A stretch of 40,827 nt of DNA, taken from Pseudothauera lacus (GTDB lineage Bacteria > Pseudomonadota > Gammaproteobacteria > Burkholderiales > Rhodocyclaceae). The DNA lies in the NCBI RefSeq assembly GCF_003034845.1, contig NZ_PZKC01000017.1, forward strand, positions 1 to 40,827, given 5' to 3'. A model generated the notes under the pieces. It ran no database searches. It saw only the letters and a list, made by a program, of their open reading frames with translations, and had not been told where the DNA came from. The stretch's first letter is position 1. Each line of letters opens with the position of its first letter. The position numbers and the translations under genes are program-made. Positions 905 through 40,827 of this stretch are shown one piece after another.

Positions 905-2404
905 TCAAGCGCGCGCGCTGCGCAGCACGTCGGCAAGGCTGCCGCCCATGCAGCGGGCGAGGGTGTCGAGGTCGAGCGCAGCCTCCAGGCTGTCCGCCAG
1001 ACGGTCGAGATCGGCCTGGCGGCGGGCGGCAAGATCCACCTCCCCGGCGTCTGCGGCCCCCGCCCAGGCAAGGAGCGCCGCCAGCGCGGCGGGTTCGTCG
1101 AAAAGTCCATGAACATAGCTGCCCAGCACCTGACCGTCGTCGGACAGCGCTCCATCCTCGCGGCCATCACCGAGACGCAGCGCCGGGCGGGCGAGCGCAG
1201 CACCGCGCGACACCCCCATGTGAATCTCGTAACCGCGCACCGCTGCCGCCGCGCCCTGCAGACACAGTTCGCCGTCGACGTTGGCAAGCTGCTTCTCGGC
1301 CTCCAGCACGGTGTCCATGTCGAGCACGCCGAAACCTGCCGTCTCCCCGGCAAGCCCTTCCACGCCGGCAGGGTCGGCGAGCGTGCGCCCGAGCATCTGG
1401 AAGCCGCCGCAGATGCCGATCACCTTGCCGCCATAACGCAGGTGACGGCGCAACGCGCCCTCCCAGCCATGGGCGCGCAGCCACGCCAGATCGGCCTGCA
1501 CGCTCTTGGAGCCCGGCAGCACGATGAGGTCGGCGGGCGGAATGTCCTGTCCCGGACCCACCCAGCGGAAGTCGACCTGCGGATGCAGGCGCAGTGGATC
1601 GAGATCGGTGTGATTGGAAATGCGCGGATACACCGGCGCGATCACCCGCAACAGGGGGACGGCCTTGTCCACCCGGGCATCGCCGAGGGCGTCCTCGGCA
1701 TCCAGGAAAAGGCCGTGAAGATAGGGCAGCACGCCCAGCACGGGCCGCCCGGTGCGCGCCTCCAGCCAGTCCAGCCCGGGCTGCAGCAGGGCGATGTCGC
1801 CACGGAAACGGTTGATCACGAAACCTTTCACGCGCGCCTGCTCGGAGGGCGAGAGCAGTTCGAGGGTGCCTACCAGATGGGCGAAGACACCGCCGCGATC
1901 GATGTCGGCGACCAGGATCACCGGGCAATCGACAGCCTCGGCAAAACCCATGTTGGCAATGTCGCGGTCGCGCAGGTTGATCTCTGCCGGACTGCCGGCG
2001 CCCTCCACCAGCACGCACTCGTAGGCGTCAATGAGGCGCTGCCAGGACTCCAGCACCGCGGTGAAGGCGGTGGGTTTGTAGTCGTGGTAGGCGCGTGCAT
2101 TGAGGTTGGCAGCGACCTTGCCGTGGATGATGACCTGGGCACCGACGTCGCTCGCCGGTTTGAGCAGCACCGGGTTGAAATCCGTGTGCGGCACCAGACC
2201 CGCAGCCAGGGCCTGCAGGGCCTGGGCGCGGCCGATCTCACCGCCATCGGCGGTGACCGCGGAATTGAGCGCCATGTTCTGCGGCTTGAACGGCGCCACG
2301 CGCACGCCGCGGCGCGCCAGCAGGCGGCACAGTCCGGCGACCAGGGTGCTCTTGCCGGCATCGGAGGTGGTGCCCTGCACCATCAGGGTGGGTGTGCGCT
2401 GCAT
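905..2404 (-). CDS. cobQ: Cobyric acid synthase (adenosylcobyrinate amidotransferase)
   Basis: CobQ/CbiP amidates side chains b, d, e and g of adenosylcobyrinic acid a,c-diamide, using glutamine and ATP. The 499-residue protein has the N-terminal dethiobiotin-synthetase-like ATP domain with GTTSDAGKS at residues 11-19. It also has [10 protein letters not shown] near 39-48 and a C-terminal class I glutamine amidotransferase domain with the nucleophile Cys332 in [10 protein letters not shown] and a late GSYVHGLFD histidine. It is divergent from cbiB across only 86 bp, so the two halves of the pathway share a promoter region. I found no B12 riboswitch in that gap. Confidence 0.96.
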
Positions 2405-4459: not shown

Positions 4460-5373
4460 CGACACGCTACAGACTGCGCACCACCCTGTCCGCAACCGCT
4501 GCGGCACTCGCCCTGCTGCTCGCGCACGGCGCGGCAGCCCAGATCAGCATCATCGACGATACCGGTCGCGAGGTGACGCTGCCACGCCCTGCGCAGCGTA
4601 TCGTCAGCCTCGCACCCCATCTCACCGAGGTCTTGTTCGCCGCCGGCGCGGGCCCCCAGGTAGTCGGCGTGGTGGCCTACAGCGACTACCCTGAAGAGGC
4701 TGCGCGCCTGCCCCAGGTGGGCGGCTACACCAGCATCGACCTCGAAGCCGTGGTCGCCCTGCGCCCCGACCTGGTGGTGGCATGGGCCAGCGGCAATCGC
4801 GCGGCCAACATCGACGGGTTGCGCGCACTGGGCATCGCGGTGTATCTCAACGAGCCCCGCCGCATGGAAGACGTCGCCCGCAGCCTGGAGAACATTGGCC
4901 AGCTCGCCGGCACCGGCGCACAGGCCCGCGCCGCCGCGACCGCCTTTCGCGAGCGCCGTGCCGCACTGGCTGCGCGCTACAGCGAACGCCCGCCGGTACG
5001 CATGTTCTATCAGATCTGGGACCAACCGCTGATGACCATCAACGGCCAGCATCTGATCAGCGACGCGATCCGGCTGTGCGGCGGCGAGAACGTCTTCGCC
5101 GATCTGCCGCAGATCGCCCCTACCGTGGGCATGGAAGCGGTACTCGCGGCGGATCCGGAAGTGGTCGTCGCCAGCGGCATGGGCGAAGCCCGCCCGGAGT
5201 GGCTGGAGCAGTGGAAACGCTGGCCCGCCCTGCACGCCACCCGCGCCGACAATCTCTACTTCATCCCGCCACAGCTGATACAGCGTCACACCCCGCGCCT
5301 GCTCGAAGGCGCGACGCAGTTGTGTGAGTTCCTGGAAAGGGCGCGCACGCGGCGCGGCGCAGAGGCAAGGTAG
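4456..5373 (+). CDS. btuF: Periplasmic cobalamin-binding protein (BtuF-like)
   Basis: This 305-residue substrate-binding protein would deliver vitamin B12 or cobinamide to a BtuCD-type importer. It has a signal peptide of about 28 residues ending in an Ala-rich AHGAAAQ stretch. It then shows the helical-backbone binding-protein pattern: DDTGREVTLPRPAQRIVSLAPHLTE in the first lobe and GMEAVLAADPEVVVASG in the second. No btuC or btuD lies nearby, so the membrane partners must be elsewhere. Linkage to cbiB and cobD supports a B12 substrate rather than iron-siderophore. Confidence 0.87.
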   Translation: MTTRYRLRTTLSATAAALALLLAHGAAAQISIIDDTGREVTLPRPAQRIVSLAPHLTEVLFAAGAGPQVVGVVAYSDYPEEAARLPQVGGYTSIDLEAVVALRPDLVVAWASGNRAANIDGLRALGIAVYLNEPRRMEDVARSLENIGQLAGTGAQARAAATAFRERRAALAARYSERPPVRMFYQIWDQPLMTINGQHLISDAIRLCGGENVFADLPQIAPTVGMEAVLAADPEVVVASGMGEARPEWLEQWKRWPALHATRADNLYFIPPQLIQRHTPRLLEGATQLCEFLERARTRRGAEAR

Positions 5374-29813: not shown

Positions 29814-29903
29814 GGGTAGATCTCCGGGATGTGTCGGGATCGTTTACACTGCGGGTCCCGCATCACACAATGCAACGAAGCGCGAATCTTAGCCCTCCGC
29901 CCG

Positions 29904-30851
29904 ATGCCGCCTCAAGCCAACGCCCCCCTGCCTTCGGGTTTTCAGCTCGATCAGTACCGCATCGAGCGGCAACTGTCGCTGGGCGGCTTCTCCATCGTAT
30001 ACCTCGCCTATGACGAGGATGGTACGCCGGTGGCGATCAAGGAGTACCTGCCCAATTCGCTCGCCCTGCGCAAGGAAGGCGAGCTCGAACCGCAGGTGCC
30101 GGACGAGAACATGCCGGCCTTCCGCTACGGCATGAAGTGCTTCTTCGAGGAAGGGCGCTCGCTGGCCAAGCTCATGCACCCCAACGTCGTGCGGGTGATG
30201 AACTTCTTCCGCGCCAACTCGACGGTCTACATGGTCATGCAGTTCGAGCGCGGACGCACGCTGCACGACTACATTCACCGCCACCGCGGCCAGGTCAGCG
30301 AACGTTTCATCCGCGGTGTGTTCACCCGCATGCTCAACGGCCTGCGCGAGGTGCACGCGCACAAGCTGCTGCATCTGGACATCAAGCCCTCCAACATCTA
30401 CCTGCGCAACGACGGCACCCCGGTGCTGCTCGACTTCGGCGCCGCGCGGCAGACGCTGATGAGCGACCAGCCGATGCTCAAACCCATGTACACCCCCGGC
30501 TTCGCCTCCCCCGAGCAGTTCGGCGACCGCGATGCGCTGGGGCCGTGGAGCGACATCTACAGCGTCGGCGCCACGCTCTACGCCTGCATCGAAGGCACCG
30601 CCCCGCCACGCTCCGACGAGCGCGTCAAGAAGGATACCCACCAGCCGGCGAGCAAGACCCACGCCGGCCGCTACTCCGCACAACTGCTGGAAACCATAGA
30701 CTGGTGCCTGAAGCTCGATCCGCTGGAGCGTCCGCAGAGCGTCTACGCCCTGCAGAAGGCACTGATGCGCAAGGAAGCCGGTGAAGCCATGCCGGCAGGC
30801 TGGTTCGCAGACCTGGGCAGCAAGCTCAAGTCCTTCATCGGCCGTTCATGA
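29904..30851 (+). CDS. Serine/threonine protein kinase
   Basis: This 315-residue Hanks-type kinase has a glycine-rich loop LSLGGFSIVY (25-33), catalytic Lys46 in VAIKEYLP, HLDIKPSN (157-164) in the catalytic loop, DFGAAR (177-182) and SPEQFG in the activation segment. All key residues are present, so it should be active. It has no transmembrane segment and no sensor domain. It is followed at 11 nt by a PP2C phosphatase, forming a reversible phosphorylation pair. ATG 29904 lies after a non-conserved upstream stretch. Targets unknown. Confidence 0.9.
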   Translation: MPPQANAPLPSGFQLDQYRIERQLSLGGFSIVYLAYDEDGTPVAIKEYLPNSLALRKEGELEPQVPDENMPAFRYGMKCFFEEGRSLAKLMHPNVVRVMNFFRANSTVYMVMQFERGRTLHDYIHRHRGQVSERFIRGVFTRMLNGLREVHAHKLLHLDIKPSNIYLRNDGTPVLLDFGAARQTLMSDQPMLKPMYTPGFASPEQFGDRDALGPWSDIYSVGATLYACIEGTAPPRSDERVKKDTHQPASKTHAGRYSAQLLETIDWCLKLDPLERPQSVYALQKALMRKEAGEAMPAGWFADLGSKLKSFIGRS

Positions 30852-30861
30852 GGTACAGCCA

Positions 30862-31782
30862 TTGAAGTTCACCATCTACCAGGAAAGCCGCATCGGCCGG
30901 CGCAAGACCAACCAGGACCGCATCGCCCACTGCTACTCGCGCGACGCCCTGCTGCTGGTGCTCGCCGACGGCATGGGCGGGCACCTGCACGGCGAGATCG
31001 CCGCGCAGATCGCCGTGCAGTTCATCACCCACGCCTTCCAGCGCGAGGCCCAGCCGCTGCTGCAGGACCCGTCGATGTTCCTCTCGCGCGCACTGAGCAA
31101 CGCCCACAACGCCATCCTCGACTACGCCTTCGACAAGGACCTTCCCGAGGCGCCGCGCACCACGGTGGTCGCCTGCGTGATCCAGGAAGGCCAGGCCCAC
31201 TGGGCCCATGCCGGCGATTCGCGCCTCTACCTGCTGCGCGGCAACCGCATCGTCGCGCAGACCCGTGACCATTCGCGGGTGCAGTTGATGATGGACCAGG
31301 GCCTGATCGACGCCGAAGGGGCGGCCCACCACCCCGGGCGCAACCGCATCTATTCCTGTCTGGGTGGCAACCATCCGCCGCAGGTGGAGTTCTCCAAGCG
31401 CATCAACCTGCGCGACGGCGACATCCTCGCGCTGTGCAGCGACGGCCTGTGGGGACCGCTCACCGACGACGGCGTGCTCGAAGGCCTGCGCGGACGCAAC
31501 GTCATGGACGCGGTGCCGGTGATGATGGACCGTGCCGAGGAACGCGGCGGCCCGACCTGCGACAACCTCTCGCTGATCGCGGTGTGCTGGCATGACGAGA
31601 AGTCCGTCGGCGAACCTGACTCGGTATCCACCCAGACCATGGCGCTGTCCGACTTCACCACCAAGCTCGACACCTTCGGCGAAAGCCACAGCAGCACGCC
31701 GAGCACCCTCGAACTCACCGACGACGAAATCGAGCGCGCCATCGCCGAGATCAACTCGGCAATCCAGAAATTCAGCAAATAG
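30862..31782 (+). CDS. PP2C-family serine/threonine phosphatase
   Basis: This 306-residue manganese-dependent phosphatase contains [19 protein letters not shown] (about 35-46), THVVAC-like [19 protein letters not shown] and [12 protein letters not shown], the motif set of PP2C. The family start [15 protein letters not shown] is encoded from a TTG at 30862 with GAGGT seven bases upstream; an ATG at 30781 in the same frame would give an unrelated leader overlapping the kinase. A C-terminal tail of about 50 residues is not part of the phosphatase fold. Opposes the upstream kinase. Confidence 0.88.
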
Positions 31783-39461: not shown

Positions 39462-39500
39462 GCGGGTGTAGTTCAATGGTAGAACGGCAGCTTCCCAAGC
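39462..39500 (+). tRNA. tRNA-Gly(CCC), 5' part, interrupted by a group II intron
   Basis: The 5' half is intact: acceptor strand GCGGGTG, D-arm GTTC-AATGGTA-GAAC, anticodon stem GCAGC, loop TTCCCAA with anticodon CCC at 39494-39496, and then GC of the 3' stem strand. The sequence breaks after base 40 (standard tRNA numbering), where the intron begins. The matching 3' half (expected TGC..., the T-arm, and CACCCGC) is not in the window. Without splicing this copy cannot make tRNA. Confidence 0.92.
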
Positions 39501-40292
39501 GTGCGACTCGAGCCGAGTCGAAGGCTAGCTGTAGCCTCTGTGCCACGCGATCCCATTGCGGGATCACCACCATTGCGGTGGGTGCACAGGAACTCAGCCT
39601 TTCAAAAAGTGCCGCAAGGCACGAAACGGCGAAGGCCGTATGAGTAATGGTTCTGCCCCTCGAAAGGGGGTGACAGAACCCGGGGTTCAGCCCCCGGTAG
39701 TCTAGGAGCGGTGCGCCACTGGTAACGGTGGGGTGCTGAGCGCTCTGACAATGTAGCCACCTTACGGGGTACGTCATGCCCCGTGAGGGGTCTGGCGTGA
39801 TTTCGGGAGTTGCACCCGGATGAGGCGCTAGGCTGAGTTGGATGGTCAACGTAAGTGAACTGCTGTTAAACGTCGTCAAGCTGATTGAGCCAAAGGCAAC
39901 TTGCAGTATCGGGCTCTGCCAAAATGGCAAGTGATCGGTTATCCGCTTGCTTGGTGCGGATACGCTGACATAGCATCACCGGCGAAAAAGCAGGACCTTC
40001 CCAACTCTGTTACTTGTACGGAACGAGGTAAGCCCAACGCGGCGTCTGGCCGGTCAAGCCAGACAAGGGCGGTCGTAAGATCAACTGATGCCGTAGTGGG
40101 TAGAGGATGATGGAAAAAGCGAATGCTCTGCTGTAATGGCGGAGATAGGGGATGAAACGATCGCCCCGACGCGAAAGCGTGCAGACTTCCATCTGGTGAC
40201 CTATCGCGAGATAGGTTTGTAAAATCGCACCCGGCGGGGATGATGTACTATCCCTGTCTGGGGACAAGTGCGTCTATCCCTTCCGGGACAGA

Positions 40293-40367
40293 GCGGGCGT
40301 CGTATAACGGCTATTACCTCAGCTTCCCAAGCTGATGACGAGGGTTCGACTCCCTTCGCCCGCTCCA
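40293..40367 (+). tRNA. tRNA-Gly(CCC), complete, inside the group II intron
   Basis: A complete 75-nt tRNA with encoded CCA. The acceptor stem GCGGGCG/CGCCCGC has 7 perfect pairs. The D-arm is of the GTAT-AACGGCT-ATTAC kind seen in E. coli glyT. The anticodon stem TCAGC/GCTGA is perfect, with loop TTCCCAA and anticodon CCC (40326-40328). T-stem GAGGG/CCCTT has loop TTCGACT. It is not a copy of the interrupted gene: D-arm, T-stem and variable region differ. It lies in domain IV, 1 nt before the RBS hairpin of the reverse transcriptase. It carries the same CAGCTTCCCAAGC stretch that the intron recognises. Confidence 0.95.
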
Positions 40368-40384
40368 ATCAACCGGAGGTTGAT
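40368..40384 (+). promoter_or_regulatory. Hairpin with the ribosome-binding site of the intron RT
   Basis: ATCAACC-GGA-GGTTGAT is a perfect 7-bp hairpin that ends at the base before the ATG. It holds the Shine-Dalgarno GGAGGT in its loop and 3' arm. This corresponds to the domain IVa stem-loop that, in other group II introns, both hides the RT start and binds the protein. Confidence 0.75.
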
Positions 40385-40723
40385 ATGGACGCAGTTCCTA
40401 AAGACTGTGATGTCGCCTTCACAACGTGGAACTCTTGGCACAGCACCGACTGGGCCAAGGTCAATCATGTTGTTGCGAGGCTACAGATCAGGATTGCGAA
40501 GGCAGTAAAAGCAGGTGCATGGCGGAAGGTGCGCACCCTGCAACGGCTCCTGACGAACTCCACCAGCGCGAAAGTGCTGGCCGTGAGAAGAGTCACGGAA
40601 AACCGTGGTCAGAAAACTCCCGGGGTGGATAACGAAACCTGGGACACTCCAGAAGCGAAGTGGGCGGCGGCCACATGCCTCAGCAACACGGGGTACAGAC
40701 CATCTCGTTATACACATCTCTGA
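40385..40723 (+). pseudogene. ltrA: Group II intron reverse transcriptase, truncated
   Basis: The first 106 residues (MDAVPKDCDVAFTTWNSW, then VARLQIRIAKAVKAGAWRKV, NSTSAKVLAVRRVTENRG, TPGVDNETWDTP and SNTGYRP) match the N-terminus (RT0/RT1 region) of LtrA-type proteins. After GYRP (40702) the match stops and a stop follows at 40721. The normal length is about 450-600 residues; the catalytic YADD, domain X and endonuclease regions are absent. See the finding on the junction: the cut may be an assembly or library artefact. Confidence 0.85.
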
Positions 40724-40827
40724 ACCTTCGGCGCGCCCGCTGAAATAGTCGTTGACCTTCAACGACTTACAGGAAGTGCTTGTAAACCCTCCAACAAACG
40801 CGTCTACTCTTCCAATTTGGGTGACCG
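40724..40827. other. Unidentified sequence after the broken reverse transcriptase
   Basis: This stretch shows no homology to group II introns that I can recognise: no domain V motif and no tRNA-Gly 3' half. It holds a perfect 8-bp hairpin GTCGTTGA-CCT-TCAACGAC near 40749-40767. Its origin (another mobile element, flanking DNA or a chimeric join) cannot be decided here. Confidence 0.35.

Follow-up and report, generated by a model that had tools for sequence, protein, structure and literature searches.

One lineage of mobile retroelements, group II introns that sit in tRNA-Gly(CCC) genes, very likely carries its own replacement tRNA-Gly(CCC) in intron domain IV. The DNA analysed here (the window, 40,827 nt) is the whole of contig C9 of genome G000, and its last part is an intron of this kind. 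A complete tRNA-Gly(CCC) was present inside 39 of the 42 related introns that had a readable tRNA-Gly 5′ exon and enough sequence.

Results

A tRNA-Gly(CCC) within an interrupted tRNA-Gly(CCC)

The sole ARAGORN call in the window is a tRNA-Gly(ccc) at exactly 40293-40367 on the plus strand, and the Rfam tRNA model scores this stretch at 57.8 bits (E = 4.4e-10; gathering score 29). This inner tRNA, the spare, is complete, with an encoded CCA and a glyT-like D-arm (type T). The outer, interrupted tRNA-Gly(CCC) is represented in the window by its 5′ half, the first 39 nt at 39462-39500 (plus strand), which is glyU-like (type U) and is broken after ...TTCCCAAGC, the intron target. The intron starts with GTGCGAC at 39501. 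Its 5′ part on C9 covers 39501-40827 (plus strand), including the terminal 126 bp of an IS, and the contig ends inside the RT gene. The remainder, which comprises the missing portion of the RT gene together with D5-D6 and the 3′ half of the outer tRNA, was found at the end of contig C12 of the same genome (locus L004, minus strand). When joined, the tRNA halves of C9 and C12 read as a tRNA-Gly(ccc) of 74 nt. A preliminary description, made from the letters of the window, had placed the intron within the anticodon arm of another tRNA-Gly(CCC). The joined halves bear this out and locate the insertion in the 3′ strand of the anticodon stem, not in the loop, between what we take to be positions 40 and 41 in standard tRNA numbering.

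The element had also been called a group II intron, with an Infernal search for group II introns suggested as a check. Rfam models matched a domain I region at 39679-39827 (RF02012, 105 bits) and D5-D6 on L004 at 1536-1612, minus strand (RF00029, 65.6 bits); RF00029 also matched L035 and L160. Base complementarity points to the same identity: GCTTGG in a hairpin loop at 39949-39954 (plus strand) is complementary to the IBS1 CCAAGC that ends the outer 5′ exon, was present in 32 of 33 related introns tested, and probably acts as EBS1. Group II introns have the end consensus GUGYG at the 5′ side and AY at the 3′ side. The 3′ end is CC here and in many relatives (GCC or TCC), while other relatives, G201, L074 and L080 among them, have AC.

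ARAGORN and Rfam agree with the first reading of a complete tRNA-Gly(CCC) with encoded CCA in domain IV, before the RT gene. Directly 5′ of this tRNA, RNA folding predicts a domain IV stem-loop at 40230-40287 (plus strand), and the fold of 40216-40400 has a z of -4.47 for the entire stretch. On its other side, a small predicted hairpin at 40368-40384 (plus strand) holds the Shine-Dalgarno sequence of the RT gene, and CAACCGGAGGTTG or near variants occur in many relatives. The N-terminal part of the RT/maturase follows at 40385-40701 (plus strand; Pfam RVT_N, E = 1.4e-32) and is interrupted by the IS. The rest of the RT on C12 is a 454-aa frame with RVT_1, GIIM and HNH and scores 340 bits against TIGR04416 (cut-off 300). 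Elsewhere in the window, a 6S RNA lies at 165-346 on the minus strand (Rfam RF00013, 62 bits), and adjoining genes at 29829-31782 resemble, by eye, a Ser/Thr protein kinase and a PP2C-type phosphatase.

From the ends of C9 and C12, we infer that a Tn5-like (IS4-family) IS inserted in the RT gene and that the assembly stopped at this repeat. Both contigs end in the IS. Its first 126 bp stand at 40702-40827 (plus strand) and are preceded, at 40691-40701 (plus strand), by the 11-bp sequence GGGTACAGACC, a putative target-site duplication that is repeated at the C12 junction. Beyond the shared GGGTACAGACC, C9 and C12 each carry exactly 126 bp of foreign sequence, and the two tails have similar ends, ATCTCGTTATACACATCT and ATGTCCTTATACACAACT. 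The C12-side tail encodes the last residues of a Tn5-like transposase (Dimer_Tnp_Tn5, E = 6.9e-6) and matches an IS4-family transposase model weakly (22 bits against a cut-off of 160, for a 35-aa fragment); the tail at the contig end gave no match among plasmids. An adapter chimera at the contig end was also considered, the tail being like the Tn5/Nextera mosaic end. It was rejected because the same 11 bp and 126 bp occur on both contigs and one tail codes for the end of a Tn5-like transposase. A search of the whole genome with a group II RT model gave one match, the C12 part of the broken gene. Because the only group II RT gene found is broken by the IS, a maturase for splicing of the outer tRNA is probably not made in G000.

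Related introns

Relatives were sought in three ways: in 150 related genomes; among 395 family genomes, of which 25 matched, in part through other introns; and by an RT scan that covered 84,980 species, each through a single genome, with three aligned intact RTs as the query, from which 80 of 241 loci were kept. Together, these searches gave 45 entries of tRNA-Gly introns, 41 of them with a readable 5′ exon. The four entries without one were left out (L066, which is the right half of G335, L075, L079 and L082), as were G231 and G202, in which only 107 and 335 nt of contig follow the junction. G274, added outside the 45 entries, is the 42nd readable intron. The sampled genomes are related, not independent, and many are MAGs.

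The preliminary description had named related introns without the tRNA as counter-evidence. For most introns the tRNA is there: apart from the 39 complete copies, the inner tRNA is cut by Ns in L061 and split by an island in G335. G274 does lack it. In G274, a short intron with neither RT gene nor tRNA follows the 5′ exon and ends in D5-D6, and a second intron start stands directly behind it, where the contig ends. G274 (L168 2706-3854), G231 (L244) and G202 (L245) belong to one genus, g50; the introns of G274 are in tandem, and the contigs of G231 and G202 break soon past the junction. Counted from the intron start, the inner tRNA lies at 755-1038 nt in the 39 introns; it precedes the matched RT start by 16-19 nt in 31 of 37 cases.

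A junction search used the exon-intron junction alone and was blind to the inner tRNA. Among the 395 family genomes, 29 matched; 20 of these 29 junctions follow a tRNA-Gly 5′ half, and the other nine lie outside any tRNA half. Sixteen of the 20 have a complete inner tRNA-Gly(CCC), G335 has a split one, G274 has none, and G231 and G202 are cut by the contig end. At the level of the order, nine of 399 genomes (partly the same as in the earlier samples) match an intron segment: G000 and G544 hold the tRNA intron, G146 holds a relic, and six hold other group II introns without a tRNA. Misassembly, also raised at the outset as a way in which an ordinary gene might have been joined to the intron, was rejected as the source of the inner tRNA: the arrangement is common to 39 of 42 introns, and the tRNA is flanked on both sides by intron in many separate assemblies.

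In an RT tree, the 39 rows of tRNA introns fall on one side of a branch with support 100/100 and form a clade under the midpoint root; near-duplicates with identical RTs (L061/L062 and L086/L112) were kept. The 80 scanned loci divide into 37 of the tRNA lineage, 28 at the groEL stop codon (exact motif) and 15 others, some of them at groEL-like sequence. No tRNA was found within 600 bp before the RT in any of the 43 loci outside the tRNA lineage (only 257 bp were visible at L116).

Integrity and exchange of the inner tRNA

All 39 complete inner tRNAs have the anticodon CCC, the CCA, U73, G1-C72 and C2-G71; the last three matter for glycine tRNA. Among the 23 distinct sequences, 97.9% of 483 cloverleaf pair cells are standard. 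Pair cells changed on both sides number 62 against a shuffle mean of 19.8, and the covariation score is 0.343 against 0.110 for shuffles. Two of five covariation measures were not above shuffles (pairs with a double change, 8 against 6.8; further pair types, 13 against 14.6). Because 39 of 42 introns share the arrangement and the 23 distinct tRNAs keep this degree of pairing, the arrangement is not due to chance.

The inner tRNA had been described as a different type from the disrupted gene and not copied from it. Over 34 pairs, inner and spliced outer tRNAs are 73-97% identical and never the same, which agrees with that view and led us to reject an origin of the inner tRNA by copying of the interrupted gene. 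A rule by which the two always differ in D-arm type was also rejected: L060, L065, L078 and G201 have type T in both.

The window's inner tRNA is identical at 75 of 75 positions to the tRNA-Gly(CCC) of five other examined members of the genus (G001-G005), in which it stands alone at the same locus, beside thiG and trmB. These five hold type T at the locus where G000 has its type U outer tRNA. The tRNA-Gly(CCC) of G031, from another genus, is also identical to the window's inner tRNA. Judged by sequence, the inner tRNA is exchangeable cargo, since here it equals the gene of the genus, yet the near-identical intron of G308, in another genus, carries a clearly different tRNA (68 of 76 aligned columns alike) while its first 792 nt differ from the window's at only 11 positions. 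Differing inner tRNA types also sit on short branches of the RT tree.

Other elements were seen at the inner tRNA. In G335 (Thauera propionica; L164 ~5193-5319, L066 ~4960-5000), an island of ~21 kb with a phage-type (tyrosine) integrase gene splits the inner tRNA in the T-loop. Near the left end of the island, at a distance of ~54 bp, lies a further tRNA-Gly(CCC). Its 73 called bases are identical to the spliced outer tRNA, which makes it a spare at a third level. Foreign sequence, probably of other integrative elements, is joined to the inner tRNA, at its 3′ part or within it, in L082 (Solimonas fluminis) upstream of the RT start, in L159 after 6088 (G308) and in L165 below 1282 on the minus strand (G254). 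It is as if integrases treated the inner tRNA as a tRNA attachment site.

Copy number of tRNA-Gly(CCC)

Twenty genomes with an intron or a relic were searched with a pattern of a CCC anticodon loop and a T-loop (the CCC pattern). In 18 of the 20 (two of them relics), the inner tRNA was the sole tRNA-like match. In G335 the match was the island copy, and G274 had no match; a search of G274 (80% complete) with an inner tRNA also found none. Three extra matches, in G000:C37, G037:C123 and G274:C122, were not tRNA-like by eye. Completeness is 90% or more in 14 of the 20 and lower in six. The pattern misses tRNAs with another T-stem, for example in G055, so further copies may have escaped. Outside the 20, an incomplete second tRNA-Gly(CCC) stands at the end of a G231 contig.

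As background, 138 of the 150 relatives match the CCC pattern. Among 126 genomes listed, 120 have a tRNA-like match and 117 of these have one (intron and relic genomes make up six of the 120); the rule for a tRNA-like match missed at least G106, whose match resembles a tRNA. The only contiguous tRNA-Gly(CCC) matched in the genome of the window is the inner tRNA. A tRNA-Gly(UCC) is also present there; wobble may allow such a tRNA to decode GGG, in which case tRNA-Gly(CCC) might not be essential.

Relics of the intron and turnover of the host tRNA

In G030, the outer anticodon now reads CGC, the start of the RT gene is altered and a search of the locus found no RT, with the inner tRNA intact. 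In G440, ~150 bp of intron are left before an intact inner-type tRNA. G146, from outside the family, has ~180 bp of intron before an intact tRNA, with no outer half and no RT. The surviving tRNA is the only CCC-pattern match in each of the three genomes. G098, a congener of G146, has a tRNA at apparently the same locus and no recognisable intron. At the thiG locus of G015 and G087 stand chimeric tRNAs that combine a congener's D-arm with an inner-type anticodon arm. In L059 (G406, Dechloromonas), the outer tRNA equals the inner type T sequence of L065 and L078, as if a tRNA once borne by an intron had been invaded again.

The preliminary description had proposed that the element brings its own replacement, and both the single-copy result and the inner tRNAs kept in decayed introns speak for this. 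We lean somewhat toward a further step, in which the introns drive turnover of the host tRNA: an intron would arrive with its tRNA-Gly(CCC) and cut the host gene, decay or deletion between the copies would leave the intron-borne tRNA in place, and that tRNA would be reinvaded. G030, G440, G146, G098, G015, G087 and L059 fit stages of such a cycle. For the exchange seen in G015 and G087, the intron may instead have taken its cargo from such a gene.

There are at least two further possibilities for a tRNA at this place in the intron. The inner tRNA directly precedes the Shine-Dalgarno hairpin of the RT gene, and other group II introns bind their protein at that place in domain IV, before the RT Shine-Dalgarno sequence. 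It might serve the structure or regulation of domain IV, for instance in maturase docking or control of RT translation, rather than be a decoding tRNA, and G274, the sole intron without an inner tRNA, has also lost its RT gene. We regard this role as improbable. The anticodon CCC and the encoded CCA are kept in all 39 complete copies, two tRNA-Gly types occupy the same place in near relatives, the inner tRNA persists without an RT gene in G030, G440 and G146, and the relatives at the groEL site have no inner tRNA.

Second, the inner tRNA could be a redundant passenger, captured host sequence without a role, in cells that splice the outer tRNA efficiently. The outer exons are indeed well preserved. 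Joined, they were called as tRNA-Gly(ccc) in 34 of 35 cases, and the 35th has Ns. The window's 74-nt joined outer tRNA occurs uninterrupted in three relatives (G064, G038 and G014; L208, L209 and L210), and nine joined outer tRNAs, the window's included, stand uninterrupted in at least one compared locus. Such intact exons fit splicing or a recent insertion. Exchange of the tRNA with host genes does happen, and the first intron of G274 has no inner tRNA, as might be expected of a passenger. A passenger should decay in some introns, however, and of 42 only G274 lacks the inner tRNA, together with the RT gene; in G030, G440 and G146, it was the RT genes and outer exons that decayed around an intact inner tRNA. 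A passenger without a role is thus quite improbable, and a replacement tRNA is the reading that we retain.

Target context of the inner and outer tRNAs

The target context was compared in 40 inner and 41 outer tRNAs (the G335 entry is the island copy, and the true inner tRNA has the same context). Outer exons have the context AGC..GC in 38 of 41, and three outers have TGC..GC|A. Among the 40 inner tRNAs, AGC..GC|T was found in 7 (including the window's), TGC..GC|A in 19, TGG..CC|A in 7 and GGC..GC|C in 7; seven inner tRNAs have CCAACC, which breaks the IBS1 pairing. In intron-free genomes, GC|T was found in 106 of 117 matches. The difference in context has p = 1.7e-12, a value that is descriptive only because the rows are related. 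A search for EBS3 found no column that covaries with the base at the start of the 3′ exon.

These contexts bear on a third possibility, that the element keeps the inner tRNA as a landing site so that a target is always at hand, as in the nested introns of Methanosarcina, for which perpetual homing sites are described in the available text of PMC4424553. Seven of the 40 inner tRNAs, the window's among them, do keep the outer context AGC..GC|T, and tandem insertion occurs at the outer junction in G274, but 33 of 40 inners differ from that context (7 with CCAACC, breaking IBS1) against 3 of 41 outers, and none of the 45 intron entries showed a second intron inside an inner tRNA, which makes a landing site very improbable. 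As a lead, inner tRNAs that differ from the outer target context recall the phage tRNA-Leu that lacks an att motif.

Discussion

We propose that the inner tRNA serves as a replacement in the following way. Insertion of the intron would cut the host tRNA-Gly(CCC) gene, usually its only one. The inner tRNA would be cotranscribed with the intron and released by ordinary tRNA-processing enzymes (RNase P, 3′ processing), and it could then sustain decoding of GGG. While the RT gene is intact, the outer tRNA would probably also be restored by maturase-assisted splicing. Inner and outer tRNA would probably share a transcript, and one transcript could yield either the inner tRNA or the full intron RNA for mobility, and perhaps both tRNAs. 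If the maturase is lost, as through the IS here, or the intron decays, the inner tRNA would become the tRNA-Gly(CCC) gene of the cell. Either way, the cell would probably keep a working copy of tRNA-Gly(CCC). We infer from the DNA the transcription, processing and charging of the inner tRNA, the splicing of the outer tRNA and the benefit of the arrangement. Release of the inner tRNA would sever the intron within domain IV, and this cleavage may be in competition with splicing and retrohoming. In organelles, domain IV is where split group II introns are divided into the two pieces in which they work.

On this proposal, a retroelement can persist in a usually single-copy tRNA gene by splicing out and, in addition, by carrying the replaced host gene as cargo. 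The system opens tests of how a tRNA in domain IV is processed alongside splicing and of whether host tRNA genes are supplanted by selfish introns. Annotation is affected as well: in these genomes, standard tools find the intron's tRNA-Gly(CCC) and miss the interrupted one of the host.

We know of no group II intron that carries such a host gene. To our knowledge, group I introns in bacterial tRNA genes bring no spare tRNA, and the group II introns of chloroplast tRNA genes (trnK/matK) are neither mobile nor provided with an inner tRNA. The preliminary description knew of no group II intron of this design, and searches of the open PMC full texts likewise brought up none, among the papers viewed, that carries a tRNA of the kind it interrupts; subscription papers lie mostly outside that collection, and an earlier report is possible.

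The nearest RT relatives in the scan, 54-59% identical, are group II introns at the groEL stop codon of Azotobacter, Pseudomonas and others, which were already known (PMC4465626, citing Michel et al. 2007, in the part available). They share the GTGCGAC start with the tRNA-Gly introns and also sit in an important host gene. They differ in that the target is the stop codon of a protein gene and in that the inner tRNA is absent in 28 of 28 exact-site loci. The groEL introns would escape harm by position rather than by a spare gene.

Self-splicing introns of group I and group II are both present in bacteria (PMC4390854, as far as its text was available). For bacterial tRNA genes, the accessible part of one review names introns of group I only; those of Azoarcus tRNA-Ile and cyanobacterial tRNA-Leu are self-splicing and, as here, lie in the anticodon arm (PMC4033280). 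Insertion in tRNA genes goes unmentioned in the accessible part of a survey of prokaryotic group II introns (PMC8919778). In chloroplasts, the tRNA gene trnK, like the gene interrupted here, holds a group II intron that encodes a maturase, matK (PMC4424553, in part). A putative tRNA gene inside an intron is likewise described for the mitochondrial atp6 of Ophiostoma minus; that intron interrupts atp6 and not a tRNA gene, and in the portion of the paper available its tRNA is unlinked to the interrupted gene (PMC7902536).

Temperate phages with replacement tRNAs are known, and in the available text of PMC8631192 the phage tRNA-Leu lacks the att motif. The phages of the Rhizobium vTRX32-1 group are, like the introns described here, mobile elements that interrupt a tRNA gene and bring a whole substitute without the integration motif (PMC8631192). 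They differ in being DNA phages with site-specific integration, without a ribozyme or intron, and do not restore the interrupted tRNA by splicing. As candidate elements with a replacement tRNA, the introns described here carry a complete tRNA of the interrupted kind in 39 of 42 cases, G274 being without it.
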